64,000 bases of DNA from Curvibacter sp. GWA2_64_110 (GTDB lineage Bacteria > Pseudomonadota > Gammaproteobacteria > Burkholderiales > Burkholderiaceae_C): positions 1 to 64,000 of the forward strand of contig MGPC01000038.1 of the NCBI GenBank assembly GCA_001797315.1, read 5' to 3'. This document shows, one piece after another, positions 10,676 to 63,090 of the stretch. Position 1 is the stretch's first letter. Every line of letters starts with the position of its first letter. The notes beneath the pieces were generated by a model. It was not told where the DNA came from and did no database searches. It worked only from the letters and a program-made list of their open reading frames with translations. A program made the translations under genes and the position numbers.

Positions 10676-11913
10676 CGATGTTGTCGCGGCGCACCGCCGT
10701 GGTGGTCTTTTTGGCCTTTGCCTTTGCCTACTTCTTTTCGGCCCTGATCCGTGCCATCACGGCCACGCTGTCGCCGACGCTGACGCAGGAGTTCGCGCTC
10801 AACGCGCGCGATCTGGGCCTGCTCGCCGGCGGCTACTTCCTTGGCTTTGCCGCCATGCAATTGCCCTTGGGCAACTGGCTGGACCGTCATGGTCCGAAGA
10901 AGGTGATCCTGAGTTTTCTGGCGGTGGCCGTGGCCGGGTGTGTGGCATTTTCATGGGCCACCAGCTTCGCTGGCCTGCTGCTGGCGCGCATCTTGTGCGG
11001 TGTCGGCCTGGGCGCCTGCCTGATGGCGCCGCTCACCGGCTACCGCCGCTGGTTTGGCGCGACCACGCAGCTGCGCACCAATTCCTGGATGCTGATGACC
11101 GGCTCCATGGGCATGGTGGCTTCCACGCTGCCGGTGCAGTGGCTCATGCCGCTGCTGGGCTGGCGTCCGCTGTTTTGGGGGCTGGCCGGCACGATGGCGC
11201 TGTCCATGGCGGTGATCGCCTGGCAGGTTCCGTCCTGGCAGGTGCCGCCATCAGCGGTGGGACAGGCGCAGCCTCAACGCAGCTACGCTGAAGTCTGGCG
11301 CCATCCCTACTTTCGCAAGATGACGCCGATCGGCTTCGTCAACTACGGCGGCATGGTGGCGATCCAGACGCTGTGGGCCATGCCCTGGATGATCCGGGTG
11401 GCCGGCTACACGCCAGAACAGGCCGCCACCGGCCTGTTCTGGCTCAACGTGGCCATGCTGCTCACCTTCTGGTCCTGGGGTTTGCTCAACCCCTGGCTGG
11501 CACGGCGTGGCTTCTCTGCCGATCGCCTGATCACCCTGGGAACACCGCTCAGCCTGTTGCTGCTTGCTATTCTTTGTATAGCTGGTGACGCCCATTCATC
11601 CTGGTCTGGAGCACTATTGGTCTTGTTTTGTGTGAGCAGTACCTTTATTTCGCTGGCGCAGCCGGCGGTGGGCATGGCCTTTCCGCCCGACCTGGCTGGC
11701 CGGGCGCTGTCAGCCTACAACCTGGTCATTTTCTCCGGCATTTTCGTCGTGCAGTGGGGCATCGGCTTGCTGATTGACGGTTTGCAGGCGCTGGGCTGGG
11801 CGCAAGCGCGGGCGTTTCAGGGCGCGCTGGCCGTCTTCCTGACACTGTGTGCCATCTCTTACATGTATTTCCTGGCGGCAAAAAGCCATAATCAGGCATC
11901 CACCGCGTCATGA
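10672..11913 (+). CDS. Major facilitator superfamily transporter
   Basis: Protein of 413 residues with about 12 hydrophobic segments; LGNWLDRHGPKKVIL after the second helix is the MFS loop 2-3 motif. Family resemblance is to nitrate/sugar-type or cyanate-type MFS carriers, substrate unknown. The start overlaps the lipoprotein gene and the stop overlaps the EIIA gene (ATGA), putting a secondary transporter in one operon with a PTS. Bases 11566-11613, encoding about residues 299-314, are a copy of the dispersed palindromic repeat inserted in frame. Confidence 0.87.
   Translation: MTMLSRRTAVVVFLAFAFAYFFSALIRAITATLSPTLTQEFALNARDLGLLAGGYFLGFAAMQLPLGNWLDRHGPKKVILSFLAVAVAGCVAFSWATSFAGLLLARILCGVGLGACLMAPLTGYRRWFGATTQLRTNSWMLMTGSMGMVASTLPVQWLMPLLGWRPLFWGLAGTMALSMAVIAWQVPSWQVPPSAVGQAQPQRSYAEVWRHPYFRKMTPIGFVNYGGMVAIQTLWAMPWMIRVAGYTPEQAATGLFWLNVAMLLTFWSWGLLNPWLARRGFSADRLITLGTPLSLLLLAILCIAGDAHSSWSGALLVLFCVSSTFISLAQPAVGMAFPPDLAGRALSAYNLVIFSGIFVVQWGIGLLIDGLQALGWAQARAFQGALAVFLTLCAISYMYFLAAKSHNQASTAS
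11566..11613 (+). repeat. Dispersed palindromic element, copy within MFS gene
   Basis: Core GCTATTCTTTGTATAGC (11566-11582) followed by TGGTGACGCCCATTCATCC, matching the tail seen in the other copies. Translated in frame as LAILCIAGDAHSSWSGA within a hydrophobic stretch. Confidence 0.75.
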
Positions 11914-12305
11914 ACAACGGCATCTTCATCATCGCCCATGCCCCGCTGGCCAGTGCTTTGCGCCAGTGCGTGGCCCATGTCTTTCCCGAGCGGGTGGGCG
12001 ATGTGCTGGCCTTTGATGTGTCGCCCGACGCGACGGCACAGGAGAGCCTGGCCGAGGCGCGACGGGCGGTGGCGGCGCAGTTCGGCGGCGCGCCGGTGCT
12101 GTTGCTGACCGATGTCATGGGGGCCACACCCTGCAATGTGGCGCGACAGCTGCTGGGCAGCGTACCGGCCCGGCTGGTGGCGGGCGTGAACCTGCCCATG
12201 CTGCTGCGTGCGCTGACTTATCAGGACGAGCCGATCGATGAGCTGACGGCGCGCGCCGTCAGCGGCGGCAGCCAGGGCGTGATGCAGGTGGCTGCCAGTG
12301 CGTAA
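11910..12305 (+). CDS. PTS EIIA component, mannose/fructose (EIIA-Man) family
   Basis: Protein of 131 residues, MNNGIFIIAHAPLASAL, with the phosphorylated His10 typical of the EIIA-Man fold, and LLLTDVMGATPCNVAR as the second conserved block. It would take phosphate from HPr, encoded next. No EIIB, EIIC or EIID gene is nearby, so the role is probably regulatory, not sugar uptake. Starts within the end of the MFS gene (four-base overlap). Confidence 0.92.
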   Translation: MNNGIFIIAHAPLASALRQCVAHVFPERVGDVLAFDVSPDATAQESLAEARRAVAAQFGGAPVLLLTDVMGATPCNVARQLLGSVPARLVAGVNLPMLLRALTYQDEPIDELTARAVSGGSQGVMQVAASA

Positions 12306-12344
12306 GCGTGCAGGACGAAGAAAAGAACAACGAGGACAGAAAGA

Positions 12345-12614
12345 ATGACCAAGGCCAGTGCGACTATTAGCAACAAGCTCGGGCTGCATGCCCGTGCTTC
12401 AGCCAAACTCACCAAGCTGGCAGGCAGCTTTCCCTGTGAGATCTGGATCGCGCGCGGTGAGCGCCGCGTCAATGCCAAGAGCATCATGGGCGTGATGATG
12501 CTGGCGGCCGGCATCGGCACCACGGTCGAACTCGATGCCGAGGGGGACCGCGCACAGGAAGCCATCGATGCCATGCTGGCCCTGATCAACGACAAGTTCG
12601 GGGAAGGGGAGTGA
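12345..12614 (+). CDS. ptsH: Phosphocarrier protein HPr
   Basis: Protein of 89 residues with the active site KLGLHARASAKL, His15, and NAKSIMGVMMLA, where Ser46 is the site used by HPr kinase in organisms that have it. HPr passes phosphate from EI to EIIA. GAGGACAG lies upstream of the ATG at 12345. Flanked by the EIIA-Man and EI genes. Confidence 0.96.
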   Translation: MTKASATISNKLGLHARASAKLTKLAGSFPCEIWIARGERRVNAKSIMGVMMLAAGIGTTVELDAEGDRAQEAIDAMLALINDKFGEGE

Positions 12615-12630
12615 ACGTGGAGCGCATGCC

Positions 12631-14403: not shown

Positions 14404-14483
14404 CGTGCTGGATTGAGCTGCATCAAGGCCGCCGCCGAGGTGCAGTTGCAGACTCCGTGGGGTATCAACTTCCGGATTTTTTC

Positions 14484-14831
14484 ATGAGCACCTTCGATCA
14501 TGCGGGCCTGATCCAGGACATCAACGAATGCCTGGCACCCTTTCGCAAGGCGCAGCCCGACGCCATGGCGGGCTTTGGCCAGCTGGCGCGCGCGTCCATG
14601 GCTGAGGGGGCCGTCAGCACCAAGCACAAGGAGCTGATGGCGCTGGCCATCGGCGTCACGCAGCGCTGCTCCGGCTGCATCGGCTTTCACGTCAAGGCAC
14701 TGCACAAGCTGGGCTGTACGCGCGCCGAGCTGGAGGAGACGCTGGCGGTGTGCGTCTACATGGGCGGTGGCCCGGCGCTGATGTACGCGGCCGAGGCGAT
14801 CAAGGCCTGGGATGCCATGGCGCCGGCCTGA
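14484..14831 (+). CDS. Carboxymuconolactone decarboxylase / AhpD-like protein
   Basis: Protein of 115 residues with the AhpD-type redox motif KELMALAIGVTQRCSGCIGFHVKALHKLG: Glu, CxxC and His in the usual spacing. Such proteins act as small thiol oxidoreductases or peroxidases; the sequence does not tell which. ATG at 14484 was chosen; a GTG at 14457 is possible but has no better ribosome-binding site. It stands alone after ptsI and is followed by an intergenic repeat copy. Confidence 0.87.
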   Translation: MSTFDHAGLIQDINECLAPFRKAQPDAMAGFGQLARASMAEGAVSTKHKELMALAIGVTQRCSGCIGFHVKALHKLGCTRAELEETLAVCVYMGGGPALMYAAEAIKAWDAMAPA

Positions 14832-14849
14832 TTCGGCATGAAATTGGCG

Positions 14850-14894
14850 CCTGGCCCTTGCTGATTAAGCGCGGGCAGCTATCCATTTTGTAGC
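14850..14894 (-). repeat. Dispersed palindromic element, intergenic copy
   Basis: On the minus strand the core GCTACAAAATGGATAGC (14894-14878) is followed by TGCCCGCGCTTAATCAGCA, close to the consensus tail. It lies between the convergent AhpD-like and methyltransferase genes. Confidence 0.85.
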
Positions 14895-14911
14895 AAATAG
14901 AGGTATGACGC

Positions 14912-17704: not shown

Positions 17705-18630
17705 GGCGATGGATTCTCCGTGCGATCTGTCTGCTGTGCTTGGCGCGAGCGGGCCTTGGCGGCCTGGTAGCCGGCATAGAGCTGGGCATAAACGGGGCCG
17801 GGCTGGCCATTGCCGACCAGCTGGCCATCGATGCGGGTGACCGGCAGCACCTCCTTGGTGGCCGAGCTCAGCAGCACCTCGTCGGCGGCCAGCACTTCGG
17901 CGCGGCTGATGCGGCGCAGCGCCAGCGGGATGCCGTGCGTGCGGCAGATGTCTTCCAGCACGGCGTAGCGGATGCCTTCGAGCACCAGGTTGTCTTTGGG
18001 CGGGCCCATGAGCACGCCGCCTTTCACCACCCAGACGTTGCTGGCAGCCGCTTCACTCAGGAAGCCGTCGCGGAACATGATGGTCTCGGTGGCGCCGGCA
18101 TCGATGCTGATCTGGCGCGCCAGCACGGCGCCCAGCAGGCTCACGCTCTTGATGTGGGCCTTCTGCCAGCGGAAGTCGTCCGCCGTGACGCAGGCCACGC
18201 CCTCGCGCCGCTGCGTTTCGCTCGGCATCTTCATGGCATTGCTCAGCACGAACACCGTGGGCGTCAGGCCTTCGATCATGGCGTGGTCGCGCAGCGCCAC
18301 GCCGCGCGTCACCTGGATGTACACCATTTGATCGATTTTTTCGACGGTAGCGCCCGTGGATGTTGCGTAATCAGCTATTAATTTGGTAGCAATTTCTTGC
18401 CACTGTGCTCGGGTGTTCGGGTTCGGGATGCGCAGCTCGGCCAGGTTGCGCTCCAGCCGTGCCATGTGCTGTTCGAAGCGAAACGGGCAGCCGCCGTAGA
18501 CCGGCAGCACTTCATAGACGCCGTCGCCGAAGATGAAGCCGCGGTCCATGACGCTGATCTTGGCGTCCGGCAGCAGCGTGTACTCGCCGTTGAGGTAGCA
18601 GGGCAGCGGGGGAAGGGCGGGAGCGTCCAT
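17701..18630 (-). CDS. dat: D-amino acid aminotransferase (class IV, PLP)
   Basis: Protein of 309 residues. MDRGFIFGDGVYEVLPVYGG near residue 28 and the PLP lysine Lys161 in KAHIKSVSLLGAVLA mark a fold-type IV aminotransferase; FLSEAAASNVWVVKGG is the cofactor phosphate region. Placement as D-alanine aminotransferase, not branched-chain, follows from the start motif and is fairly likely. ATG at 18630 was chosen; the frame is open further upstream only by overlap. Residues about 79-95 (EIATKLIADYATSTGAT) are encoded by a copy of the dispersed palindromic repeat. Confidence 0.87.
   Translation of the reverse strand: MDAPALPPLPCYLNGEYTLLPDAKISVMDRGFIFGDGVYEVLPVYGGCPFRFEQHMARLERNLAELRIPNPNTRAQWQEIATKLIADYATSTGATVEKIDQMVYIQVTRGVALRDHAMIEGLTPTVFVLSNAMKMPSETQRREGVACVTADDFRWQKAHIKSVSLLGAVLARQISIDAGATETIMFRDGFLSEAAASNVWVVKGGVLMGPPKDNLVLEGIRYAVLEDICRTHGIPLALRRISRAEVLAADEVLLSSATKEVLPVTRIDGQLVGNGQPGPVYAQLYAGYQAAKARSRQAQQTDRTENPSP
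18348..18390 (-). repeat. Dispersed palindromic element, copy within dat
   Basis: On the minus strand the core GCTACCAAATTAATAGC (18390-18374) is followed by TGATTACGCAACATCC. It is translated in frame within dat and is visibly AT-richer than the flanking gene. Confidence 0.8.
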
Positions 18631-20718: not shown

Positions 20719-20976
<258 letters not shown>

Positions 20977-29690: not shown

Positions 29691-30219
29691 CATCGTCAAG
29701 CAGGCCATGGCCAAATGGCCGAATGTGCCGGACTGCTACGGCTGGCTCGGCCTGGACGCACGCGGCAACTGGTACATGCGCGATGACCGGGCGCAGGCGG
29801 TGGGCCCGTTTGCCGGCGGCAATGCGGCCGCCAAGGGTTCGCTGCTGCGGCACGACAAGCTGATCGACTTTATCCAGCGCAACTATGCGGCCGACGCGCA
29901 GGGGCGCTGGTTTTTCCAGAACGGGCCGCAGCGCGTCTTCGTCGAACTGGAAGCCACGCCCTGGATCTGGCGCATCCAGCCGGATTTGTCCGTGCAGGCG
30001 CACACCGGTCAGCCGGCGCAGGTGCAGCAGTGTGTGCTGGACGAACAGGGCCGGGTCTATCTGCTCACCGATCTCGGCTTCGGCCTGGTGCACACGCAGG
30101 ACGTGGCGCTGGCGGCGGATGCCGTGCAGGCCGGCTTGTGGTCCGTGGAGGAGATGGCCGCGCAGCAGATGCCGGTGCGTTTCAGCTATGTGATGAGCCC
30201 GCAGGCGCTATCAAAATAA
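29683..30219 (+). CDS. Conserved hypothetical protein coupled to YheT-type hydrolase
   Basis: Protein of 178 residues with no signal peptide or membrane segment; Trp/Tyr-rich: YGWLGLDARGNWYMRDD, FFQNGPQRVFVELEATPWIWRI. From memory it resembles a DUF of the 29xx series (perhaps DUF2944), but I cannot confirm. The ATG sits in ATGGATGA, overlapping the hydrolase stop, so translation is coupled. Its last codons (LSK, stop) come from a copy of the dispersed palindromic repeat, so the natural C-terminus may have been replaced. Confidence 0.7.
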   Translation: MDDIVKQAMAKWPNVPDCYGWLGLDARGNWYMRDDRAQAVGPFAGGNAAAKGSLLRHDKLIDFIQRNYAADAQGRWFFQNGPQRVFVELEATPWIWRIQPDLSVQAHTGQPAQVQQCVLDEQGRVYLLTDLGFGLVHTQDVALAADAVQAGLWSVEEMAAQQMPVRFSYVMSPQALSK

Positions 30220-30248
30220 TAGCTGTTAGCGCATATTCAGCAAGGCAA
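30207..30248 (+). repeat. Dispersed palindromic element at the 3' end of a gene
   Basis: Core GCTATCAAAATAATAGC (30207-30223) followed by TGTTAGCGCATATTCAGCA. The TAA inside the core (30217-30219) is the stop codon of the preceding gene. A terminator follows directly. Confidence 0.88.
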
Positions 30249-30267
30249 CAAGGCCAATTTGGCATAA

Positions 30268-30293
30268 AAAAACCGGTCGATGACCGGTTTTTT
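30268..30293. terminator. Bidirectional terminator
   Basis: AAAAACCGGTC (30268-30278) pairs perfectly with GACCGGTTTTT (30282-30292), loop GAT, with A- and T-runs on the two sides. It separates the hypothetical gene from the convergent cytochrome gene. Confidence 0.93.
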
Positions 30294-34723: not shown

Positions 34724-35860
34724 TTAGACGATAGCCAGGTTTTCTGTCCCCGCACTCAGATCCTGCGACTTGCCGCGCTCGCTGCTCAGCTTGATCTGCA
34801 GGCGCAGGTCGTTGAGCGAATCGGCGTTGCGCAAGGCGTCTTCGTAGCTGATGACGTTGGTCTCGTACAGGTCGAACAAGGCTTGGTCGAAGGTCTGCAT
34901 GCCGAGCTGGCGGCTCTTCTTCATGATCTCCTTGATCTCGGCAACTTCGCCCTTGAAGATCAGGTCGGAGATCAGCGGCGTGTTGATCATCACCTCCACC
35001 GCCGCGGCCCGGCCCTTGCCGTCCTGCTTCGGCACCAGGCGCTGCGAGATCAGTGCGCGCAGGTTGAGCGAGAGGTCCATCAGCAGCTGCGGCCGGCGTT
35101 CTTCGGGGAAGAAGTTGATGATGCGGTCCAGCGCCTGGTTGGCGCTGTTGGCGTGCAGCGTGGCCAGGCACAGGTGGCCGGTTTCGGCAAAGGCCACCGC
35201 ATGCTCCATGGTCTCGCGGTCGCGGATCTCGCCCATCAGGATCACATCGGGCGCCTGGCGCAGCGTGTTCTTGAGTGCGATCTCCCAGCTGTCGGTATCC
35301 AGCCCCACCTCGCGTTGCGTCACCACGCAGTTCTTGTGCGGATGAACGAACTCCACCGGGTCCTCGATGGTGATGATGTGGCCGTAGGATTTTTCATTGC
35401 GCCAGTCCACCATGGCCGCCAAGGTGGTGGATTTGCCGGAGCCGGTGGCGCCGACCAGGATGCACAGGCCGCGCTTGGCCAGCGCCACTTCCTTGAGCAC
35501 CTGCGGCACACCCAGCGTGTCGATGGTCGGCAGCAGCGAGGGGATGACGCGCAGCACCATGCCGACCTTGCCCTGCTGCACGAAGGCGTTGGCGCGAAAG
35601 CGCCCGATGCCCGGCGGCGAGATGGCGAAGTTGCACTCCTTGGTGCGCTCGAACTCGGCCACCTGCTTGTCGTTCATGATCGAGCGCGCCAGCGCCAGGG
35701 TGTGCGCGCCGCTCAGCGGCTGCGGCGACACCTTGGTCACCTTGCCATCGACCTTGATGGCCGGCGGGAAGTCGGCCGTGATGAACAGGTCGCTGCCATT
35801 GCGGCTGACCATCAGCTTGAGCAGGTCGTTGATGAATTTCGTGGCTTGATCGCGCTCCAT
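34724..35860 (-). CDS. pilU: Type IV pilus retraction ATPase PilU
   Basis: Protein of 378 residues, a PilT-like secretion ATPase: Walker A GATGSGKS at 137-144, Asp box and Walker B in LMGEIRDRETMEHAVAFAETGHLCLATLHAN. Longer C-terminal tail than PilT (KLSSERGKSQDL), as in PilU, the auxiliary retraction motor. ATG at 35860 is preceded by AAGGAGGTG, an excellent ribosome-binding site; open frame continues upstream only through the intergenic repeat. Confidence 0.94.
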   Translation of the reverse strand: MERDQATKFINDLLKLMVSRNGSDLFITADFPPAIKVDGKVTKVSPQPLSGAHTLALARSIMNDKQVAEFERTKECNFAISPPGIGRFRANAFVQQGKVGMVLRVIPSLLPTIDTLGVPQVLKEVALAKRGLCILVGATGSGKSTTLAAMVDWRNEKSYGHIITIEDPVEFVHPHKNCVVTQREVGLDTDSWEIALKNTLRQAPDVILMGEIRDRETMEHAVAFAETGHLCLATLHANSANQALDRIINFFPEERRPQLLMDLSLNLRALISQRLVPKQDGKGRAAAVEVMINTPLISDLIFKGEVAEIKEIMKKSRQLGMQTFDQALFDLYETNVISYEDALRNADSLNDLRLQIKLSSERGKSQDLSAGTENLAIV

Positions 35861-35897: not shown

Positions 35898-35999
35898 CGG
35901 GGAACACCGCGGAACCGGCTTCGCCGGGCCGCAGGTGTTGCCCCCTGCAAGGGGGGTGGCGAAGCGGCACGCAGTGCGCGCAGCCTGGGGGTGTTTCAT
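35898..35999 (-). repeat. ~100-bp intergenic repeat, copy downstream of pilT
   Basis: Between pilT and pilU. Read on the minus strand it starts AACACCCCCAGGCTGCGCGC just after the pilT stop and ends in CCGCGGTGTTCCCCG. It contains the hairpin CCGGC-GAA-GCCGG and a CTTGCAGGGGG segment. Same family as 43859-43955 and 62524-62621. Confidence 0.92.
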
Positions 36000-36001: not shown

Positions 36002-37045
36002 TCACCCGGGGAAGTTTTCCGGAATCTTGGCCTTGCCGCGCGCCTCGGCCGGGCTGATGAGGTTGCGCTTGACCAGCTCGGTCAGGTTCTGGTCCAGCGT
36101 CTGCATGCCCACGTTGTTGCCGGTCTGGATGCTGGAGTACATCTGCGCCACCTTGGCTTCGCGGATCAGGTTGCGGATGGCCGGCGTGCCGATCATGATC
36201 TCGTGCGCCGCGACGCGGCCGTTGCCGTCCTTGGTCTTGATCAGCGTCTGCGAGATCACCGCCTGCAGCGATTCCGACAGCATGGCGCGCACCATCTCCT
36301 TCTCCTCGGCCGGGAAGACGTCGATGATGCGGTCGATGGTCTTGGCGGCGCTCGAGGTGTGCAGCGTGCCGAACACCAGGTGGCCGGTCTCGGCCGCCGT
36401 CATGGCCAGGCGGATGGTTTCCAGGTCGCGCATCTCGCCCACCAGGATGGCGTCCGGGTCCTCGCGCAGCGCCGACTTCAATGCGTTGGCAAAGCTCAAG
36501 GTGTGCGGCCCGACCTCGCGCTGGTTGATCAGGCACTTCTTCGATTCGTGCACGAATTCGATCGGGTCTTCCACCGTCAGGATGTGGCCGAATTCGGTTT
36601 CGTTCAGGTGGTTGACCATGGCCGCCAGCGTGGTGGACTTGCCGGAGCCGGTGGGGCCGGTCACCAGCACCAGACCGCGCGGCTTGAGCGCTAGGTCGGC
36701 AAAGATCTTCGGGGCGTTGAGCTGTTCCAGCGACAGGATCTTGCTCGGGATGGTGCGGAACACGGCACCCGAGCCGCGCTGGTGGTTGAAGGCGTTGACG
36801 CGAAAGCGCGCCAGGCCGTCGATCTCGAAGGAAAAGTCGACTTCCAGGAACTCCTCGTAGTTCTTGCGCTGGGTGTCGTTCATGATGTCGTACACCATGG
36901 CGTGCACCTGCTTGTGGTCCAGCGGCTCCACGTTGATGCGGCGCACGTCGCCATTCACGCGGATCATGGGCGGCAGGCCGGCCGAGAGGTGCAGGTCGGA
37001 GGCCTTGTTCTTGACGCTGAACGCCAGCAGTTGGGTGATGTCCAC
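36002..37045 (-). CDS. pilT: Type IV pilus retraction ATPase PilT
   Basis: Protein of 347 residues starting (M)DITQLLAFSVKNKASDLHLSAG. Walker A is GPTGSGKS (130-137), Walker B region ILVGEMRDLETIRLAMTAAETGHLVFGTLHTSSA, and the PilT-specific AIRNLIREAKVAQ near the C-terminus. Start is the GTG at 37045 with AGAGGGA upstream, giving the standard PilT length. PilT disassembles pilin at the inner membrane to drive twitching. Confidence 0.96.
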   Translation of the reverse strand: MDITQLLAFSVKNKASDLHLSAGLPPMIRVNGDVRRINVEPLDHKQVHAMVYDIMNDTQRKNYEEFLEVDFSFEIDGLARFRVNAFNHQRGSGAVFRTIPSKILSLEQLNAPKIFADLALKPRGLVLVTGPTGSGKSTTLAAMVNHLNETEFGHILTVEDPIEFVHESKKCLINQREVGPHTLSFANALKSALREDPDAILVGEMRDLETIRLAMTAAETGHLVFGTLHTSSAAKTIDRIIDVFPAEEKEMVRAMLSESLQAVISQTLIKTKDGNGRVAAHEIMIGTPAIRNLIREAKVAQMYSSIQTGNNVGMQTLDQNLTELVKRNLISPAEARGKAKIPENFPG

Positions 37046-37091: not shown

Positions 37092-37787
37092 ATGACCACG
37101 ATTGCCACCCAGCTCCAGACCGTTCATGCCCGCATCACCGCCGCGTGTCTTGCAGCCGGGCGCGACCCGCGCGACGTGCGACTGCTGGCGGTGTCCAAGA
37201 CCTTCGGCCCCGAGGCTGTAGCCGAAGCGTACGCGGCGGGCCAGACGGCCTTCGGCGAGAACTACATCCAGGAGGCGGTCGAGAAGATGGCAGCCTTGAG
37301 CCATCTGCCGCTGGAGTGGCACTGCATCGGTCCGATCCAGAGCAACAAGACGCGGCTGGTGGCGCAGCATTTCGCCTGGGTCCACACGGTGGACCGGCTG
37401 AAGATCGCACAGCGACTCCATGAACAGAGAGCGTCGGATCTCCCGCCGCTGCAGGTCTGCATCCAGGTCAATGTCGACGGCGGCCCGACCAAGTCCGGCG
37501 TGGTGCCGCACGAGGCCTTGGCGCTGGCGCGCGAAGTTGCCGCATTGCCGCGCCTGGCGCTGCGTGGCCTCATGTGCATTCCCGAGCCTGCTCCTGATTT
37601 CGAAGCGTCTCGCGCAGTATTCATGCGGGCCAGGGCCTTGTTTGATCAAATAAGGTCAGAAGGCTTGGCGCTCGACACCCTGTCCATGGGCATGACGGCC
37701 GATCTGGAGGCCGCCATCCATGCCGGCAGCACGATGGTGCGTGTGGGCACCGCCATCTTCGGCGGCCGCAGCTACGCCGCGGCTTGA
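37092..37787 (+). CDS. yggS: PLP homeostasis protein (YggS/PROSC family)
   Basis: Protein of 231 residues, a fold-type III PLP barrel: LLAVSKTFGPEAVAEAYAAGQTAFGENYIQEA with the PLP lysine Lys36, WHCIGPIQSNKTRLVAQHFAWVHTVD, and the phosphate site SMGMTADLEAAIHAGSTMVRVGTAIFG. It binds PLP without catalysing a reaction and keeps vitamin B6 balance. Divergent from pilT, as is common. Confidence 0.95.
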   Translation: MTTIATQLQTVHARITAACLAAGRDPRDVRLLAVSKTFGPEAVAEAYAAGQTAFGENYIQEAVEKMAALSHLPLEWHCIGPIQSNKTRLVAQHFAWVHTVDRLKIAQRLHEQRASDLPPLQVCIQVNVDGGPTKSGVVPHEALALAREVAALPRLALRGLMCIPEPAPDFEASRAVFMRARALFDQIRSEGLALDTLSMGMTADLEAAIHAGSTMVRVGTAIFGGRSYAAA

Positions 37788-39284: not shown

Positions 39285-42272
39285 ATGTCGACCACCGCCC
39301 GTCTGCCCAGCCCTTACCGGCCCGAGGCCGAGATCGTCGCCCAGTGCCTGGCGGCCCTGGACCCACCGCTGGACTGGCCGGCCGTTGTCCGCACCGCCCA
39401 GCCCTGGGTGCAGGCGGTGCGCGACCGGCCGCCGCCGTTCTGGGCCATGGAGCGCCTGCTGCAGGAATACCCGATCTCCAGCGCCGAGGGGTTGGCGCTG
39501 ATGCGGCTGGCCGAGGCCCTGCTGCGCGTGCCTGACCGGGAGACCGCGCTGGCGCTGACCGCCGACCAGCTGGGCCGGGCCGATTTCGCCAACTCAGCCG
39601 ACCCCGCGGGCGGCCTGGCGGCCCGTCTGTCTTCGACCGTCATCCGGCGCGCCAAGCACCTGCTGCCGAGCGGCGAGGCGAGCGGCCTGCTGGCCCGCCT
39701 GGGGGGGCACACCGTGGTGGCGGCCACGCTGCGCGCGGTGCAGTTGCTGGGGCGCCAGTTTGTGCTCGGGCAGGACATGGCGCAGGCCCTGCAACGTGCC
39801 GATGCCCTGCGCGCCACGGGGTGCCAACTGCGCTTCAGCTACGACATGCTGGGCGAGGGCGCGCGCACCGAGGCCGATGCCAAGCGTTATCTGGCGAGCT
39901 ACGCTGCGGCGATCGACGTCATCGCCGCGCATCGCGGCGGCGCCACCGCCAGCTGCGCCGAGCGCGACGGCATCTCGGTCAAGCTCAGTGCGCTGCACCC
40001 GCGCTACGAGGACGCACAACATGAGCGCGTCATGGCCGAGCTGGTGCCGCGCGTCTGGTCGCTGTGCGAGCGCGCCGCTGCTGCCCATCTCAACCTGACG
40101 CTGGATGCCGAGGAGGTCGAGCGGCTGGAGCTCTCGCTCGACGTGTTCGAGGCGCTGGCCGCGCGGGTGGCGCAGCACTGCCCGCAATGGCCGGGCCTGG
40201 GGCTGGCGCTGCAGGCCTACCAGACGCGCGCGCTGGCACTGGTGCAGCAGGTGGTGGCCATCGCGCGCCACCACCAGGTGCGCCTCATGTGCCGCCTGGT
40301 CAAGGGCGCCTACTGGGACGCCGAGATCAAGCGCGCCCAGGAGCTCGGCCTGCCGCACTATCCGGTGTTCACCCACAAGGCGCACACCGATGCTTCGTAC
40401 CTGGCCTGCGCGCAGGCCTTGCTGCAGGCCGGCGATGGGGTCTACCCGCAGTTCGCCAGCCACAATGCCAGCACCCTCGCCGCCGTGCTGCAACTCGCAG
40501 CGCGCCATGGGGCAGCGTTCGAGCTGCAAAGGCTGCACGGCATGGGCGAAGGCGTGTACCGCGAGGTGTTGCAAGACCCGCGCATCGCCTGTCGCGTTTA
40601 TGCGCCGGTCGGCACGCACCGCGACCTGCTGGCCTACCTGGTGCGTCGCCTGCTGGAAAACGGTGCGAATTCGTCATTTGTGCATCAGCTCGCCGATGCC
40701 GCGGTGAGCCCGCAGGCGCTGCTGGCCTCGCCCTTGCACTTGCATGCCACGCCGGCCCTGCCACTGCCGCCCGACCTCTTTGGCGCGGCACGTGCCAACA
40801 GCCTGGGCGTGGACCTGACGGTGGCCGCCATGCGCGCGCCGCTGCTGGCCGCGCATGCTGCGCTGGTGTTGCTGCAGGTGCCGACGTTCGATGCCAAATT
40901 AGCCTATAAGGCTTATGAAATAAGCGCCGACAGCTATCAAAAATGGAGCATTCTGCCGGTTGCCGAGCGCGCCGCCGTGCTGCGCCGCGCCGCCGATATG
41001 CTGCAGGCCCGGCTGCCGCAGTTCTGCGCACTGCTGGTGCAGGAGGCGTTCAAGACCTGGGGCGATGCGGTGGCCGAGGTGCGCGAGGCGGTGGACTTTC
41101 TGCGCTACTACGCGGGCGAGGCCGAGCGCATCATGCAGCCGGTGTTGTTGCCCGGCCCGACGGGCGAACAGAACGAACTGCGCCTGAAGGGCCGCGGCGT
41201 CTGGGTCTGCATCAGCCCGTGGAATTTCCCGCTCGCCATCTTCAGCGGCCAGGTGGCGGCCGCACTCGTCACCGGCAACACCGTGCTGGCCAAGCCGGCC
41301 GAGCAGACGCCGGCAGTGGCGCAGGCCATGGTCGATGTGCTGTACGCCGCCGGCGTGCCGGCCGCTGCCTTGCAACTGCTGCCCGGCCCGGGCGAGCGCG
41401 TGGGTGCCGCGCTGGTGGCGCTGCCCGGCATTGCCGGCGTGGTGTTCACCGGCTCGACGCCGGTGGCCAAGACCATCCAGCGCGCCCTGGCCGCCAAGGA
41501 GGGTGCCATCGTGCCGCTGATTGCCGAGACCGGCGGCATCAACGCCATGCTGGTCGACTCCTCCGCGCTGCCGGAGCAGGTGGTAGATGCGGTGGTGCAG
41601 AGCGCCTTCCGTTCCGCCGGCCAGCGCTGCTCGGCGCTGCGCCTGCTGTGTTTGCACGAGGCGATTGCCGATGGCGTGATCGAGATGCTCTGCGGCGCGG
41701 CGCAGGCCTTGGTGGTGGGCGACCCGTCCGATCTGGCCACCGATGTCGGGCCGGTGATCGACCGCGAGGCCTACGACACCCTGCAGCGCCAGTTGCAGCG
41801 TCTCGATGCAGAAGCAAAAGTGCTGCTTCGCCTTGATGATCAGGCGCGAGCAGCTATTAATTCAGTAGCAAACCGGGTGCCGCCGGCGATCTACGAGGTC
41901 GATGCAATCGAGCGGGTGCAGACCGAAATCTTCGGCCCGGTGCTGCAGGTGGTGCGCTGGCGCGGCGATTCGGCAGCGGTGATCGGGCAGATCAACGCGC
42001 TCGGCTACGGGCTCACGCTCGGCTTGCAGACCCGCATCGACACGCGGGCGCAAAGCCTGGCCGCGGCAGCGCACATCGGCAACGTCTACGTCAACCGCAA
42101 CATGATCGGCGCCGTGGTCGGCGTGCAGCCTTTCGGCGGTGAGGGGTTGAGCGGCACCGGGCCGAAGGCCGGCGGGCCGAACTACCTGGTGCGCTTTTGT
42201 GCCGAGCAGACCGTGACGGTCAACACCGCGGCCGCCGGCGGCAATGCGGCGCTGCTGGTCGCCATCTCATGA
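39285..42272 (+). CDS. putA: Bifunctional proline dehydrogenase / P5C dehydrogenase, short form
   Basis: Protein of 995 residues. The FAD proline dehydrogenase barrel runs to about residue 480 (FSYDMLGEGARTEADAKRYL, MCRLVKGAYWDAEIKRAQ, RRLLENGANSSFVHQ). The P5C dehydrogenase follows (ISPWNFPLAIFSGQVAAAL, Glu in AETGGINAMLVD, Cys782 in SAGQRCSALRL, EIFGPVLQVVRW). There is no ribbon-helix-helix domain, so this is the minimal, non-regulatory PutA. It oxidises proline to glutamate at the membrane. Two copies of the dispersed repeat are translated inside it, at about residues 539-555 and 848-862. Its 3' end overlaps the convergent arginase gene by 6 bases. Confidence 0.97.
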   Translation: MSTTARLPSPYRPEAEIVAQCLAALDPPLDWPAVVRTAQPWVQAVRDRPPPFWAMERLLQEYPISSAEGLALMRLAEALLRVPDRETALALTADQLGRADFANSADPAGGLAARLSSTVIRRAKHLLPSGEASGLLARLGGHTVVAATLRAVQLLGRQFVLGQDMAQALQRADALRATGCQLRFSYDMLGEGARTEADAKRYLASYAAAIDVIAAHRGGATASCAERDGISVKLSALHPRYEDAQHERVMAELVPRVWSLCERAAAAHLNLTLDAEEVERLELSLDVFEALAARVAQHCPQWPGLGLALQAYQTRALALVQQVVAIARHHQVRLMCRLVKGAYWDAEIKRAQELGLPHYPVFTHKAHTDASYLACAQALLQAGDGVYPQFASHNASTLAAVLQLAARHGAAFELQRLHGMGEGVYREVLQDPRIACRVYAPVGTHRDLLAYLVRRLLENGANSSFVHQLADAAVSPQALLASPLHLHATPALPLPPDLFGAARANSLGVDLTVAAMRAPLLAAHAALVLLQVPTFDAKLAYKAYEISADSYQKWSILPVAERAAVLRRAADMLQARLPQFCALLVQEAFKTWGDAVAEVREAVDFLRYYAGEAERIMQPVLLPGPTGEQNELRLKGRGVWVCISPWNFPLAIFSGQVAAALVTGNTVLAKPAEQTPAVAQAMVDVLYAAGVPAAALQLLPGPGERVGAALVALPGIAGVVFTGSTPVAKTIQRALAAKEGAIVPLIAETGGINAMLVDSSALPEQVVDAVVQSAFRSAGQRCSALRLLCLHEAIADGVIEMLCGAAQALVVGDPSDLATDVGPVIDREAYDTLQRQLQRLDAEAKVLLRLDDQARAAINSVANRVPPAIYEVDAIERVQTEIFGPVLQVVRWRGDSAAVIGQINALGYGLTLGLQTRIDTRAQSLAAAAHIGNVYVNRNMIGAVVGVQPFGGEGLSGTGPKAGGPNYLVRFCAEQTVTVNTAAAGGNAALLVAIS
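40900..40949 (-). repeat. Dispersed palindromic element, first copy in putA
   Basis: On the minus strand the core GCTCCATTTTTGATAGC (40949-40933) is followed by TGTCGGCGCTTATTTCATAA. In putA it encodes LAYKAYEISADSYQKWSI on the other strand, at the junction between the two enzyme domains. Confidence 0.8.
41828..41869 (-). repeat. Dispersed palindromic element, second copy in putA
   Basis: On the minus strand the core GCTACTGAATTAATAGC (41869-41853) is followed by TGCTCGCGCCTGATCATCAA. In putA it encodes LDDQARAAINSVANR in a loop of the P5C dehydrogenase domain. Confidence 0.85.
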
Positions 42273-43858: not shown

Positions 43859-43955
43859 CGGGGAACGCCGTGGAACCGGCTCCGCCGGGCCACTGGCGTT
43901 GCCCCTTGCAAGGGGGGTAGCGAAGCGACACGCAGTGCGCGCAGCTTGGGGGTGT
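43859..43955 (-). repeat. ~100-bp intergenic repeat, copy downstream of the hydrolase gene
   Basis: Read on the minus strand it starts CACACCCCCAAGCTGCGCGC within four bases of the hydrolase stop codon and ends CCACGGCGTTCCCCG, with hairpin CCGGC-GGA-GCCGG. Clearly the same family as 35898-35999. Confidence 0.92.
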
Positions 43956-55390: not shown

Positions 55391-56206
55391 TCAGCGCCGC
55401 TGCGCCTGGAATTGTGCGCAGTGGTCGATGTCGGGTCCGGGGGCGGCCGGCCAGGCCAGGTCAAACGACGCTGTCAAATCAGGAGCTGATAGCGCTTTGT
55501 CTGCGCCGAGTCCAATCGATTTCGTTTGAAATTCCCGGGGCAGGTGCTGCGGCACCCCCAGCAGGCGGTCCACATGGCCGCGGCCGGCCAGCAGCAGCAC
55601 GGTCCGGCCCGGCTGCGCCGCCGCGCGCAGGGTTTGCGCCATGGCCAGGTCGCGCGCGATCTGCACCCGCGTCATCGGCGTGATCTGGCTCTCCGGCAGC
55701 ATCCCGCAGTGGCCCAGGCGGATGGCCTGCTGCTGCGCCTTGAGCGCCGGGCCGGGCAGCAGGGTGTCGAATTGCGGGTCGGCCATGCGGCTGCGCAGCT
55801 GGGCGCGCGGCAGGTTGGCGCCGAGCACCGGCACGCCGGCGCGCACCGCCGCCATCACGGCCGGGCCATAGGCGCGCCAGGGCCAGGCGGCCTCGTTCCA
55901 TTGCAAAGCGGCTTGCACCTGCGCCTCGCTGACGTCGGCCGGCAGGCCGCGCGTGTCGTGTCCCTGTTCGGCCATCTCCAGCGCCAGTGCCGCCAGTTGA
56001 CCGCGTGCCGCCAGCGCCTGCACCACGTCACGCTGCACGCGCTGGTGGTCCGGTGCGTCGTGCTGTTCACCGAGCAGGATCGCGTCGGCCGGCAGCAGGG
56101 CCGCCAGGCGCTGGCCGGTGTCCGGTCCGGCCCGGCTGGCGCAGCCGGTGGCCAGCACGGCACAGCTCAGCAGAGCGGCAAGCCGGAACGTGAAAGGGCG
56201 GAACAT
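55391..56206 (-). CDS. ChaN-like (haem-binding uptake, Tiki/ChaN fold) lipoprotein
   Basis: Protein of 271 residues: signal peptide with lipobox LATGC, then AILLGEQHDAPDHQRVQRDVVQALA and LAGRGHVDRLLGVPQHL, the His/Glu motifs of the ChaN/DUF399 family, which binds haem in Campylobacter and is related to TIKI peptidases. The C-terminal end (about residues 232-246, GLGADKALSAPDLTA) is encoded by a copy of the dispersed repeat. Divergent from the AbrB-family gene. Confidence 0.85.
   Translation of the reverse strand: MFRPFTFRLAALLSCAVLATGCASRAGPDTGQRLAALLPADAILLGEQHDAPDHQRVQRDVVQALAARGQLAALALEMAEQGHDTRGLPADVSEAQVQAALQWNEAAWPWRAYGPAVMAAVRAGVPVLGANLPRAQLRSRMADPQFDTLLPGPALKAQQQAIRLGHCGMLPESQITPMTRVQIARDLAMAQTLRAAAQPGRTVLLLAGRGHVDRLLGVPQHLPREFQTKSIGLGADKALSAPDLTASFDLAWPAAPGPDIDHCAQFQAQRR
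55470..55513 (+). repeat. Dispersed palindromic element, copy in the ChaN-like gene
   Basis: Core GCTGTCAAATCAGGAGC (55470-55486), a weaker match with GCT/AGC ends, followed by TGATAGCGCTTTGTCTGC. The gene runs on the opposite strand and stays in frame across it. Confidence 0.65.
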
Positions 56207-57295: not shown

Positions 57296-57317
57296 GTCGC
57301 CACCGGATCGACGCGGT

Positions 57318-57626: not shown

Positions 57627-57724
57627 GATGTCCGGTTCTCCCAACGTCCTGGATCGCAGATGGATGCCGGTCTGGCGATTTCAAGTGTGCAAGCAGCGTA
57701 CCACGATTGCCCGCAGGGTGTGCC

Positions 57725-58789
57725 TCAGGGCGGGCCGCTGCTGCGCCATTGCTGGTCGATGAAGTCGCCGTTGTCCTGCGTCAGCTTGATGCGCACCGGC
57801 AGGTAGCCCAGTGCCGGTGCCAGCCAGAGTTCGACCATCAGGTCGTAGGGTTGTCGCCGCGGGCGGGTGATCTTGAGGGTGTCCTGTTCGCCGCCGGGCA
57901 GATTCAGATGTTCGGTGCCGTCGACGACAAAACGCCAGACGTCGGATTCGCGTGGGCCCACGGCTTGCATTTCGATGGCGGTGCCGCGCGGGTAGCGCTG
58001 CGGCTCGGCCGCAATCAGGCTGGCGATCTGCACGAAGATGCTGAGCTGGTCCTGCGCGCCGGGTTGCAGTGCGGCCTCGGGTGTGTTGGCGCTGAAGATC
58101 ACCTTGCCCTTGTCGTACTCGAAATGCGCGGCCACCTCGCTGCGCACCTTGTCGCCGAAGCGCTTGGGCCGCAGTCCCTCGGGCGTGAGCTGGCCGCGGC
58201 TGGTCTGTCGCCGTGAGCCCAGGAACAAGGCGCTGATCTCCAGCTGTGCCTCGTAGGCTTGCCCGTCATGCGCCCACAGCAGTTCGGCATCGGCGGTGTA
58301 GGGCAGCGTGCGCACTTCGCCATAAAGCTGGTACTGGATGCGCAACGAACCGGGCACGGCGGTGGCCGGTGCGTGGGCCTCGGCGGCCGGTGCTGCCGCG
58401 GGGGGCTCGGCTGCGGGCGGGGCGGCCGGTGTGTTGTCAGGCGCTGCGGCGGCTGATTCATTTGCTATTGAATTAATAGCAGTCGGCGCATATTCTGCAA
58501 GGGCTGGTGCCGGATTTTGTTCCTGAGTTGGCGGTGGTGCCGGCCGAGGCCGGGCCGGCTTGGGCCGGGGCGCGACCGCTGGCGGTGAGGGTGCGGGCGG
58601 GACGGGCGGGGCCAGCACGGTGCGCGTGATCAGGGGCCGGCTGAGGGACGGTGTGACCGGCAGGCTGTCCAGGTGCAGGCCGCTCAGCAGCGCCAGATGG
58701 GCCGCCAGCAGGGCGCCGCCCAGCAGCAGCAGCGGCCGCCAGGGGGCGGCGGGTGCGCCGCCGGGGGTATCGAGGACCGGTCTGCTCAA
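57725..58789 (-). CDS. DUF3108 domain protein with Pro/Ala-rich linker
   Basis: Protein of about 354 residues: membrane segment (LLLLGGALLAAHLALLSGL), a long Pro/Ala-rich linker (about 50-150) and a C-terminal DUF3108 beta-rich domain (YGEVRTLPYTADAELLWAHDGQAYEAQLEISALFLGSRRQTSRGQLTPEGLRP). The layout is TonB-like at the N-terminus and suggests a periplasmic protein. Start is the TTG at 58789, overlapping the IclR stop (TTGA). The dispersed repeat encodes AEYAPTAINSIANES in the linker. Confidence 0.8.
   Translation of the reverse strand: MSRPVLDTPGGAPAAPWRPLLLLGGALLAAHLALLSGLHLDSLPVTPSLSRPLITRTVLAPPVPPAPSPPAVAPRPKPARPRPAPPPTQEQNPAPALAEYAPTAINSIANESAAAAPDNTPAAPPAAEPPAAAPAAEAHAPATAVPGSLRIQYQLYGEVRTLPYTADAELLWAHDGQAYEAQLEISALFLGSRRQTSRGQLTPEGLRPKRFGDKVRSEVAAHFEYDKGKVIFSANTPEAALQPGAQDQLSIFVQIASLIAAEPQRYPRGTAIEMQAVGPRESDVWRFVVDGTEHLNLPGGEQDTLKITRPRRQPYDLMVELWLAPALGYLPVRIKLTQDNGDFIDQQWRSSGPP
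58464..58507 (+). repeat. Dispersed palindromic element, copy in the DUF3108 gene
   Basis: Core GCTATTGAATTAATAGC (58464-58480), a 6-bp perfect inverted repeat, followed by AGTCGGCGCATATTCTGCAA. In the gene (opposite strand) it falls in the Pro/Ala-rich linker. Confidence 0.88.
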
Positions 58790-59562: not shown

Positions 59563-59579
59563 GATCTAATCAAGCGTGG

Positions 59580-59602
59580 CTCGTTCCGTTTTGGTCAACG
59601 AG
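59580..59602. promoter_or_regulatory. Candidate IclR operator
   Basis: CTCGTT (59580-59585) and AACGAG (59597-59602) form an inverted repeat with an 11-base spacer, in the middle of the 73-base gap between the divergent IclR and FAH genes. Position and symmetry suit a regulator site; not otherwise supported. Confidence 0.4.
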
Positions 59603-59635
59603 TTTAGCAATACGCAATCAGAGATTTTTCTTCCC

Positions 59636-60646: not shown

Positions 60647-60661
60647 GGCATCAGTCTCATG

Positions 60662-60690
60662 AAAAAGGGCGGCCCATGGCCGCCCTTTTT
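60662..60690. terminator. Bidirectional terminator
   Basis: AAAAAGGGCGGCC (60662-60674) pairs perfectly with GGCCGCCCTTTTT (60678-60690), loop CAT. It separates the FAH gene from the convergent eRF1-like gene. Confidence 0.93.
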
Positions 60691-60706
60691 TCGTCAAGCC
60701 AGCAGC

Positions 60707-61147
60707 TCAGGCCTGGCCGTTCATCTTGTCGTGTTTGAGGAAATACTGTTTCGCCATCGCCACCAGTTGCGCGTCGCTCGGGTGGTCGCTGCTGATGACG
60801 TCGACGATGGCCTTGTCGACGGCCTTGTCGTGGCGCTGGCAATGGGCGCGGAACTCGTCCTTGGCCTGGGCCGGGCCGGTCACCAGGATCTCGTGCACGC
60901 CCTTGAGCGCCTCGGCCACCGAGTGGTAGTAGGTTTCGTCGCTGCTGTTGTGGCCGCCCTGCGCCGAATGGTGGCCGCTGGCACTGTCGCCACGGCCGTG
61001 CATGCCCTGGTGCGAGCCGACGTGGCCGCCGGTGGCCTTGTGATGACTGCGCGACTTGATGCGCTCGGCTTCGACGTGTTCGCGGTCGAACAGGATGACG
61101 TGGGCTTCGGAACGGTCGAGCCAGACGATGGCGTGGTAAGTGGACAT
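60707..61147 (-). CDS. eRF1-like bacterial protein (baeRF / 'translational machinery protein' family)
   Basis: Protein of 146 residues: YHAIVWLDRSEAHVILFDREHVEAERI at the start, a His/Gly/Ser-rich loop (about 32-66), then ETYYHSVAEALKGVHEILVTGPAQAKDEFRAHCQRHDKAV. This follows the pattern of the bacterial eRF1-domain family usually named translational machinery protein; action at the ribosome has been proposed from the fold only. ATG at 61147. Upstream on the same strand lies a DksA/TraR-type gene, gap 46 bases. Confidence 0.68.
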   Translation of the reverse strand: MSTYHAIVWLDRSEAHVILFDREHVEAERIKSRSHHKATGGHVGSHQGMHGRGDSASGHHSAQGGHNSSDETYYHSVAEALKGVHEILVTGPAQAKDEFRAHCQRHDKAVDKAIVDVISSDHPSDAQLVAMAKQYFLKHDKMNGQA

Positions 61148-61193
61148 GGGGGTCTCCTGATCAATGAATGGGTAATGGGTGAACGGTGACGCT

Positions 61194-61577
61194 TCAGGCG
61201 CCGCTGGCCCTGCCGTGCGGGTGCTCGAACTTGTCCTGGCAGTCGATGCAGCGCGCTGTCTCGGGCGCGGCATGCAGTCGGGCGGCCGGGATGTCCACGC
61301 CGCAGTCGGTACATACGCCATAGGTGCCGGCTTCAATGCGCTTGAGCGCGGCATCGATGGCGTCAAGCTCGGCGCTCTCGCGCGCATCGAGCGCGAATTC
61401 GAGTTCGCGCTCGGTATCCATCTGGGCGCGGGGGTCTTCGGGCTGGCCGCCGAAATGATCGGCCGAGGCCTCGGCGCGCCCGATCGTGCCGCCACGCAGG
61501 CTGGTGATCTGGGCCAGCAGGCTGGTGCGCTGCTCCTGCAGCTGCTTCTTGAAGGGGGCGGTCAGTTGTGTACTCAT
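61194..61577 (-). CDS. DksA/TraR-family zinc-finger protein
   Basis: Protein of 127 residues: coiled-coil N-terminal half (FKKQLQEQRTSLLAQITSLRGG ... ERELEFALDARESAELDAIDAALKRIEAGTYG) and a C4 zinc finger CTDC...CIDC. It lacks the two acidic tip residues in DxxDxA form typical of DksA, so binding to RNA polymerase is possible but unproven. ATG at 61577 with GGAG upstream. Likely cotranscribed with the eRF1-like gene. Confidence 0.88.
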   Translation of the reverse strand: MSTQLTAPFKKQLQEQRTSLLAQITSLRGGTIGRAEASADHFGGQPEDPRAQMDTERELEFALDARESAELDAIDAALKRIEAGTYGVCTDCGVDIPAARLHAAPETARCIDCQDKFEHPHGRASGA

Positions 61578-61730
61578 GAAAATCTCCGTGGCGAATAGGC
61601 CCATCATGCGCGTCCACTGCGCGGTCGTCTTTGACACAAGTCAAGACTGGTGCGGGGCGAACGGATGTGAAAAGCCGTCAGAATCAGGCTCAGGTATTTC
61701 ATTACACAGTAGAACACAGGAGACACCGGC

Positions 61731-62525
61731 ATGGACTACAGCCGCTACCAGACCTTGAACATCACGCGCCGCGGCGACAACGGCGCCGTGCTCGACATCC
61801 AGATGAAGGCGCTCAACGGCAAGCTGCCGACCGCCGACCATCAGGGCCACCGCGAGCTGACCGAGATCTGGCGCGATGTCAGCGCCGACGACAGCGTGCG
61901 CTGCGCCGTGTTGCGCGGCGAGGGGCAGGGCTTTTCCGGCGGCGGCGACCTGGGCCTGGTGCAGGACATGGCGCAGGACTTCGCCGTGCGCAGCCGCGTC
62001 TGGAAGGAAGCGCGCGACCTGGTCTACAACGTCATCAACTGCGACAAGCCGATCGTCAGCGCCATGCACGGCCCGGCGGTCGGCGCCGGCCTGGTGGCCG
62101 GCCTGCTGGCCGACATCTCGATCGCCAGCCGCGGTGCCAAGATCGTCGACGGCCACACCCGCCTGGGCGTGGCCGCCGGCGACCACGCGGCCATCATCTG
62201 GCCGCTGCTGTGCGGCATGGCCAAGGCCAAGTACTACCTGATGCTGTGCGAACCCGTCAGCGGCGAAGAGGCCGAGCGCATCGGTCTGGTGTCGCTGGCG
62301 GTGGAGGAGGCGGAGCTGCTGCCCAAGGCCTATGAGGTCGCCGACCGGCTGGCCAGTGGCAGCCAGAGCGCGATCCGTTGGACCAAGTACGCGCTCAACA
62401 ACTGGTTGCGCCAGGCCGGTCCGTCCTTCGACACCTCGCTGGCGCTCGAGTTCATGGGCTTTGGCGGCCCCGATGTGCGCGAGGGCCTGGCCTCGCTGCG
62501 TGACAAGCGCGCGCCGAGGTTTTGA
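61731..62525 (+). CDS. Enoyl-CoA hydratase/isomerase family protein
   Basis: Protein of 264 residues of the crotonase fold: oxyanion residues in [16 protein letters not shown] and [60 protein letters not shown]. One expected Glu of true hydratases appears replaced (the loop reads VAAGDHAA), so the exact reaction (hydratase, isomerase or hydrolase) is open. Stop codon overlaps the start of a repeat element. Confidence 0.88.
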
Positions 62526-62621
62526 ACACCCCCAGGCTCCGCGCACTGCGTGTCGCTTCTCCACCCCCCTTGCAGGAGGCAACGCCAGTGGACCGGCAGA
62601 GCCGGTTCCACGGCGTTTCTG
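62524..62621 (+). repeat. ~100-bp intergenic repeat, copy downstream of enoyl-CoA hydratase gene
   Basis: Begins GAACACCCCCAGGCTCCGCG, overlapping the TGA stop of the hydratase gene, and ends CCACGGCGTTTCTGG, with hairpin CCGGC-AGA-GCCGG. Same family and same orientation relative to the upstream gene as the copies at 35898 and 43859. Confidence 0.92.
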
Positions 62622-62691
62622 GCATGGGGCATTTCATGCGCAATGCGCCCGTGGAACTCAACGGCGGTATCGGGCTGTCATAATCGAACCT

Positions 62692-63045
62692 ATGCAGACC
62701 CTGCGCCGCGCCCATTTCCTTGCCCGCTTCGTGCTGGTGTGGTTCGCGCTGTCCATCGGGGTGGCGATCGCTTCGCCCATCGTCAAGCCGCAGGCCATGG
62801 CGCTGATCTGCTCCGGCGCCGGCGTCGTCAAGCTGGTGCAGACCGACGATGGCGTACCCGCCCCTTCCGGCCACACGCTGGACTGCCCGCTGTGCATGAT
62901 CAGCAGCGCACCGCCGCCGGTGGTGCGCCTGCAGGTCGAGCCGCAACAGCCGCTGGCACACGCCCTGCAGCCCATTGCGGCGGCGCACATCGCCGGCCGC
63001 ACCGCCGCGCCGCTGCCGGCCCGCGGGCCGCCCTCTCTCTCCTGA
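62692..63045 (+). CDS. DUF2946-like exported protein with CPLC motif
   Basis: Protein of 117 residues: a signal peptide or membrane helix (FLARFVLVWFALSIGVAIASP) and the motif TLDCPLCMISSAPPP, typical of DUF2946. Proteins of this family are often encoded beside TonB-dependent copper receptors; a TonB receptor gene follows 79 bases later, so a metal (perhaps copper) role is an inference. ATG at 62692. Confidence 0.75.
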   Translation: MQTLRRAHFLARFVLVWFALSIGVAIASPIVKPQAMALICSGAGVVKLVQTDDGVPAPSGHTLDCPLCMISSAPPPVVRLQVEPQQPLAHALQPIAAAHIAGRTAAPLPARGPPSLS

Positions 63046-63090
63046 GCTATCAAAACCATAGCGCCTGACGCCCGTTTCTCAGGGGCTGAC
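63046..63090 (+). repeat. Dispersed palindromic element, intergenic copy before the TonB receptor
   Basis: Core GCTATCAAAACCATAGC (63046-63062), beginning right at the stop of the DUF2946 gene, followed by GCCTGACGCCCGTTTCTCA, a somewhat diverged tail. Confidence 0.8.

Follow-up and report, generated by a model that had tools for sequence, protein, structure and literature searches.

Purifying selection acts today, copy by copy, on the two arms (GCTA...TAGC) of the 17-bp core of a short palindromic DNA element that is dispersed in the genome of Curvibacter sp. GWA2_64_110; it is seen where copies occupy orthologous sites in related genomes. This is a new observation on a repeat that we analysed starting from a 64-kb stretch of 65% GC (contig MGPC01000038.1, positions 1 to 64,000; hereafter the window, meaning the whole stretch). 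Selection is less strict on the A/T centre of the core, on a GCGC downstream of it and on a distal TTT. Judged from these sequence patterns, the copies are probably sequence-specific DNA sites, scattered as a family and each part of a unit of about 66 bp, which some species have lost wholesale.

The conservation was measured by following copies of the window's own genome (G000) to their orthologous places in genome G002, using nearly whole contigs, so that the copy state of the target was not preselected, and counting each site once; the G002 contigs were hand-picked from match lists. A spanning orthologue was found for 20 of 28 copies with intact arms, and 19 of them had intact arms in G002. 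The arms (GCTA, TAGC) kept 159 of 160 bases, the GCGC 77 of 80, the central three positions 58 of 60 and the distal TTT 58 of 60, while drift was seen at positions 5, 6, 10 and 11 (56/80), at positions 17-21 (70/100), at positions 26-36 (162/220) and in the flanks (7083/7955, a fraction of 0.890). In the opposite direction an orthologue was available for 23 of 35 copies, with 182 of 184 arm bases kept. The same was observed in a second genus, where the comparison of G255 with G385 covers 8 of 35 copies because 140 kb of G385 were compared: the arms kept 63 of 64 bases, positions 5, 6, 10 and 11 kept 20 of 32 and the flanks a fraction of 0.843, and the reverse comparison (7 of 13 copies) gave 55 of 56 arm bases. 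Shifting an eight-base comb over 710 flank offsets yielded fully identical sites at a fraction of 0.44 on average and 0.76 at most; at its true place 20 of 21 and 23 of 24 sites were fully identical, some palindromic cores being counted on both strands. The putative contact bases are thus conserved copy by copy above the surrounding DNA, as in dispersed binding sites, and since dead mobile DNA would drift evenly and the arms do not, the copies at orthologous sites are not fossils. Moreover, neither gain nor loss of a unit was found at the comparable sites of G000 and G002 (30 and 33 in the two directions); length differences were at most 6 bp at 27 of 30 and 30 of 33 sites, and in the three larger G000-to-G002 differences the copy was still recognisable.

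The unit of about 66 bp reads TTT-GCTAY-N7-RTAGC-TGCTNGCGC-N11-GSGC-TAGAGGCC-N-ATTT-GGCTTSAAA. This consensus was drawn from two high-copy genomes (15 fresh-looking loci each), 37 copies of the own genome and 157 copies of named genomes; the apparent invariance of the arms and of the GCGC in it is partly a matter of choice, because the collecting patterns fixed both and left the tail free. The spacer between the arms is A/T-rich and highly variable. TTT and AAA mark the unit ends in the consensus only, and a target duplication was not clearly seen at two aligned loci where presence and absence of the unit could be compared.

Within the window, seven copies have the exact 17-bp GCTA-N9-TAGC core followed by CGC at constant spacing (11566+, 14894-, 18390-, 30207+, 41869-, 58464+ and 63046+), and an eighth (40949-) is added when one mismatch is allowed. 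In 100 dinucleotide shuffles of the window the mean was 0.70 matches and none of the shuffles reached eight. A nucleotide profile, for which 157 copies were taken from 120 stretches of other genomes, recovered the same eight copies, with expected values (E) from 1.4e-12 to 3.2e-4. The copies, together with a ninth site proposed earlier, are as follows.

11564..11622, plus strand: element copy, core 11566-11582, profile 25.4 bits, E 5.9e-7; within an open reading frame (ORF), same strand, frame 0
14832..14898, minus strand: element copy, core 14878-14894, profile 43.3 bits, E 1.4e-12
18345..18392, minus strand: element copy, strict core 18374-18390, profile 31.7 bits; in the D-amino acid aminotransferase gene (dat), same strand, frame 0
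30207..30268, plus strand: element copy, strict core 30207-30223, profile 30.3 bits; orthologous copy with intact arms in G002
40887..40949, minus strand: element copy, putA site 1, one-mismatch core, profile 19.3 bits, E 4.8e-5; antisense, one arm GCTC instead of GCTA
41810..41872, minus strand: element copy, putA site 2, strict core 41853-41869, profile 39.4 bits; antisense
58460..58524, plus strand: element copy, strict core 58464-58480, profile 43.2 bits; antisense within an ORF
63045..63104, plus strand: element copy, strict core 63046-63062, profile 16.7 bits, E 3.2e-4
55470..55530, plus strand: claimed ninth copy, unsupported by core pattern or profile

The sequence-only reading of the window had listed nine copies, all with a core of exactly 17 bp and six of them inside genes and in frame, among these genes that it named MFS, ChaN-like and DUF3108. 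Eight copies stand by core and profile, seven with the exact core and 40949 with one mismatch; the site at 55470 has neither a strict nor a one-mismatch core and no profile match even at E 10. Five of the eight lie within genes (11564, 18392, 41872 and 58460 by ORF calls, 40949 by the putA frame), and neither 14832..14898 nor 63045..63104 lies entirely within an ORF in simple gene calls. That the core ends are kept and its inside varies, as proposed, was borne out by the copy alignments. A weak match to the tail alone at 37609-37650 (E 0.0056) was left out of the copy count.

The repeat family is genuine. Across the own genome the strict pattern matched 155 times, against 13 for the reversed pattern used as control. 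Among 25 genomes of the own genus, three had 155, 163 and 159 matches and the remaining 22 had 0 to 13. With a stricter pattern the element was found in 108 of 399 genomes and 46 of 141 genera of a family sample, with a maximum of 300 copies (G413), and copy counts jumped within genera (156, 0, 217, 0 and 300 in g87; 122, 159, 0 and 81 in g141; 0, 0, 0, 0 and 104 in g36). Tail matches track core matches: among the 399, each of the 30 genomes that reached 10 tail matches had 15 or more core matches, and because of this no lineage with other arms was seen; the tail-only pattern showed no arm switch in element-free genomes of the same sample. In 16 genomes from 16 other families of the order there was no excess over the control. 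Furthermore, among the matches listed in a scan of named genomes (at least 120 stretches), every named genus is one that we take to belong to Comamonadaceae; Rhodoferax sp. OV413 is among these carriers. The association with this family, which had been put forward from the window's sequence, is therefore upheld by the family sample and the named-genome scan, together with the lack of excess in the 16 other families. The 67-nt consensus matched two plasmid records and no phage records. On viral contigs, among the loose-pattern matches listed (at least 120 loci, L189-L308), at least 38 held a profile match at 1e-4 and ten of these held two or three, so the element is also present in phages or prophages of these hosts.

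The family is old, with orthologous copies in different genera. In a comparison of 19 putA loci, both copies of the window were found at the same positions in other genera of the family: site 1 was recognisable in G000, G002, G238, G245, G255, G280 and L178, where one arm always reads GCTC instead of GCTA, a change that gives a tryptophan codon in that frame, and site 2 in G000, G002, G238, L176 and L178. In the element-poor genome G324 both sites were present in decayed form, G430 showed no more than a trace, at site 1, and the own-genus genomes G003, G007 and G008 had no element at either site. Comparison across genera revealed further shared sites with the arms kept and the inside changed.

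Copies inside genes hardly change the length of the encoded proteins. At PutA site 1 the stretch measured 56 residues in all 17 genomes that share the PutA type of the window, whether or not they had the element, and 61-97 residues where PutA was of a more distant type. The stretch at PutA site 2 was 57 residues long in carriers vs 52 in seven genomes without the element; G280 had 53, element-poor relatives 60-78 and G255, which carries the element elsewhere, 76. The D-amino acid aminotransferase was longer by 3 or 4 residues against 4m0j and 4pbc, glucose-6-phosphate isomerase by 6 against 4em6 and the propionyl-CoA carboxylase alpha subunit by about 2 within the element. TrpF, with a weak copy of 23.8 bits, showed 0 residues difference; such weak copies may be chance matches, because the reversed control yields 13 per genome. 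The six in-gene sites thus differ by 0 to +6 residues and none comes near the +22 of an inserted peptide. Clean insertions, which the sequence-only reading had expected to see in dat and putA, were not borne out, as element-free homologues have nearly the same protein length there. An insertion may have been followed by a deletion that made up for it, or the element may have taken the place of a stretch of host DNA; a literature search on short-patch illegitimate recombination returned nothing relevant. Five same-strand copies near protein starts read by eye as signal peptides, for example FAMKIVAACAILAGATAA; these copies, and one further locus, are:

L133, 5166-5101: signal-peptide-like copy
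L177, 3899-3845: signal-peptide-like copy
L177, 2275-2326: signal-peptide-like copy
L171, 1259-1197: signal-peptide-like copy
L122, 2494-2436: signal-peptide-like copy
L024, near 1501: further signal-peptide-like copy

Placement relative to genes was determined for 264 profile matches in 181 sequences, in which 90% of the bases are coding by a simple gene caller: 135 copies were intergenic, 77 lay across a gene end and 52 within genes. As the sequence-only reading had suggested for the window, copies within genes prefer open frames: 14 of the 21 copies on the gene's strand share one phase, and so do 24 of the 31 antisense ones. Intergenic copies had no orientation preference to their neighbours (67/69 downstream, 56/58 upstream), and divergent gaps were under-represented, with 20 copies vs 29.6 expected by bases. 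Replication polarity was not found in two complete chromosomes (42 strand runs with 39.8 expected, and 18 with 19.7 expected). One stricter pattern placed copies in every eighth of both chromosomes (80 and 42 sites), and their spacing was random in the one chromosome analysed. Although strands are random overall, one-orientation clusters of five copies (3368140-3396582) and three copies (3649534-3659231) were noted on contig C1 of G255.

The reading that we consider probable, a family of DNA sites kept by selection, suggests a mechanism. A homodimeric DNA-binding protein would read the GCTAY-N7-RTAGC dyad across the AT-rich spacer, and the GCGC, about one turn away, and the distal TTT may serve as secondary contacts; two inverted blocks of 4-5 bp on either side of a variable, AT-rich spacer, together with these outer bases, are the trace expected of a dimer that reads a dyad. 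Such a factor would act chromosome-wide, in architecture, identity or uptake, and not as a promoter regulator. In lineages that lose the protein, selection on the sites would be lost and the sites would decay in place; this course of events would produce the all-or-none copy counts within genera and decayed remnants at the same places. A broader scenario is offered tentatively, as one that is possible but that we would not favour as a whole: an undescribed Comamonadaceae site system in which a dimeric factor maintains between 100 and 300 spaced-dyad sites in each genome. These would have arrived in the form of a 66-bp cassette, able to overlay coding DNA nearly length-neutrally and reused as protein, in part as apparent signal peptides; after factor loss the sites would melt and leave remnants in place.

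Several points weigh against the reading as selected binding sites. The second genus contributes 7-8 sites, the flanks mix coding and non-coding DNA and so give no clean neutral rate, and copies within and between genes were pooled. When element-free G324 was compared with G255 just two sites aligned, one with intact arms. The proposed decay after factor loss draws on two element-poor genomes at one gene, and between genera one arm is altered in part of the shared copies, with the unit absent at other sites. The protein itself is postulated from the pattern of sites. At two loci, presence and absence of the element differ by 66 bp (L136) and by 72 and 71 bp (L087/L187), so that the unit can come or go whole. 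In addition, genes for Y1 transposases or repetitive extragenic palindrome (REP)-associated tyrosine transposases (RAYT) that score over the curated cut-off occur in 19 of 20 element-rich vs 11 of 18 element-poor genomes (p 0.016, kinship ignored).

The last two points would suit an ordinary non-autonomous mobile element of the miniature inverted-repeat transposable element (MITE) or REP type, spread by a transposase, with in-gene copies as tolerated insertions, and so would the definite length of the repeated unit and its patchy copy number. We nevertheless regard this explanation as unlikely. It may account for the origin of the copies but fails for the present conservation, as fixed copies are expected to drift evenly and the arms do not; no gain or loss occurred at the 30 and 33 comparable sites of G000 and G002, and proteins are not lengthened by 22 residues at in-gene copies. 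When all matches to Y1/RAYT genes are taken, 19 of 20 element-rich and 13 of 18 element-poor genomes have one (Fisher p 0.08, kinship ignored); the genes are thus somewhat commoner in carriers, which suits the mobile-element explanation, but G396 has 104 element copies and no Y1 match. Among five RAYT loci scanned, element matches lay nearby only at L036 (G184). The single RAYT-type gene of the own genome (L038, contig C36 of G000) lies in a locus without the element and is flanked by a 27-bp inverted repeat (1406-1432 / 2251-2277, 93% complementary) unrelated to it. A link to RAYT, raised by the sequence-only reading, was accordingly not supported, the association being weak and the own RAYT flanked by another repeat; a Y1/RAYT enzyme may have had a past role in the element's history.

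A hairpin had been suggested as the alternative to a protein-binding site. As RNA or DNA it might act as terminator, in mRNA processing or as structural RNA, and the two spaced inverted blocks of the unit (GCTA/TAGC and GCGC/GSGC) would agree with it. The four inner pairs of the dyad showed no covariation in 157 copies (z 1.0, 0.5, -1.7 and -2.2), nor was it clear in the second spaced pair (largest z 2.1; 108 copies with the 11-base spacing); RNAalifold on 34 copies predicted just the four fixed arm pairs, and Rfam gave no matches, either in the window (gathering thresholds) or in ten loci that carry copies (E 1). That covariation and strand preference are both missing counts against RNA, and with an inside that does not covary a sequence-reading protein fits better than a selected hairpin; we hold the hairpin to be highly improbable, and of the two proposals it is the binding site that the site-by-site conservation in two genera supports. 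It seems equally far-fetched that a single transcription factor uses the copies as operators of a very large regulon: dyads around an AT-rich spacer do resemble a repressor operator, but divergent gaps are somewhat avoided and 52 of 264 copies lie within genes. Neither a promoter preference nor polarity was seen, which counts against operators and also against roles like those of KOPS or matS, and placement as operators or terminators found no support in the positions relative to neighbouring genes. A signal for DNA uptake or exchange, as in Neisseria or Pasteurellaceae, kept by preferred uptake and recombination, would explain conservation per site, occurrence in and between genes, missing polarity and wholesale presence or absence in related species. 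Known DNA uptake sequences are shorter and far denser than this element, which forms a 66-bp unit and in the own genome occurs only about once every 20 kb, and we judge this explanation improbable.

Many short chromosomal sites are kept copy by copy in bacteria, among them matS, KOPS, SlmA sites and the uptake sequences DUS/USS. The sites of the Comamonadaceae element resemble these in their number along the chromosome and their occurrence in and between genes, but differ in sequence, in the 66-bp unit, in the absence of polarity or ter bias (two chromosomes) and in random spacing (one chromosome). With REP/RAYT systems they share short palindromic repeats in hundreds of copies, but a different repeat flanks the own RAYT, no Y1 match was obtained in G396 despite its 104 copies, and 20% of copies are in genes. 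Our literature search, with most subscription journals outside its reach, gave no description of the element; topic searches led to the beta-proteobacterial repeat element (BRE) and to Rickettsia palindromic elements (RPE), and the exact core or tail strings were not found, the single match listed being an enzyme paper. The RPE, of about 150 bp in Rickettsia, are described in the accessible text of the review PMC10969869 as in-frame translational fusions; judged by that text, both are small repeated units found in genes in open frames and between genes, whereas the element described here is of about 66 bp, occurs in Comamonadaceae, is nearly length-neutral in the genes checked and has constrained dyad arms (PMC10969869). 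The BRE, according to the portion available of PMC3110155, measure 75-91 bp in Bordetella, average 69% GC, are sometimes in tandem and number at most 29 listed copies (Polaromonas JS666). They likewise are dispersed repeats, in some of the same genera and sometimes in coding sequence, but with about 90 bp and high GC they are set apart, by description only in that portion, from a unit of about 66 bp with an AT-rich core (PMC3110155). A different, GC-rich repeat of about 95 bp also occurs in the window; its three copies (35898-35995, 43859-43955 and 62525-62617) are 87-91% alike, and it may be the published BRE. Two further stretches (35106-35474 and 36312-36680; 72-76% alike, 1206 bp apart) perhaps represent a tandem gene duplication.

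Small repeats in bacteria tend to be regarded as the decaying debris of mobile DNA. In this family the copies, in and between genes, are partly shared across genera with the same dyad arms, which makes the question of which protein reads the dyad directly testable, and the all-or-none counts within genera provide matched genome pairs whose gene content can be compared to find the factor. Should the proposed system be real, a chromosome-wide signal would be added to those known, in a family common in the environment, and its in-gene copies would represent an unusual route from DNA signal to protein sequence.

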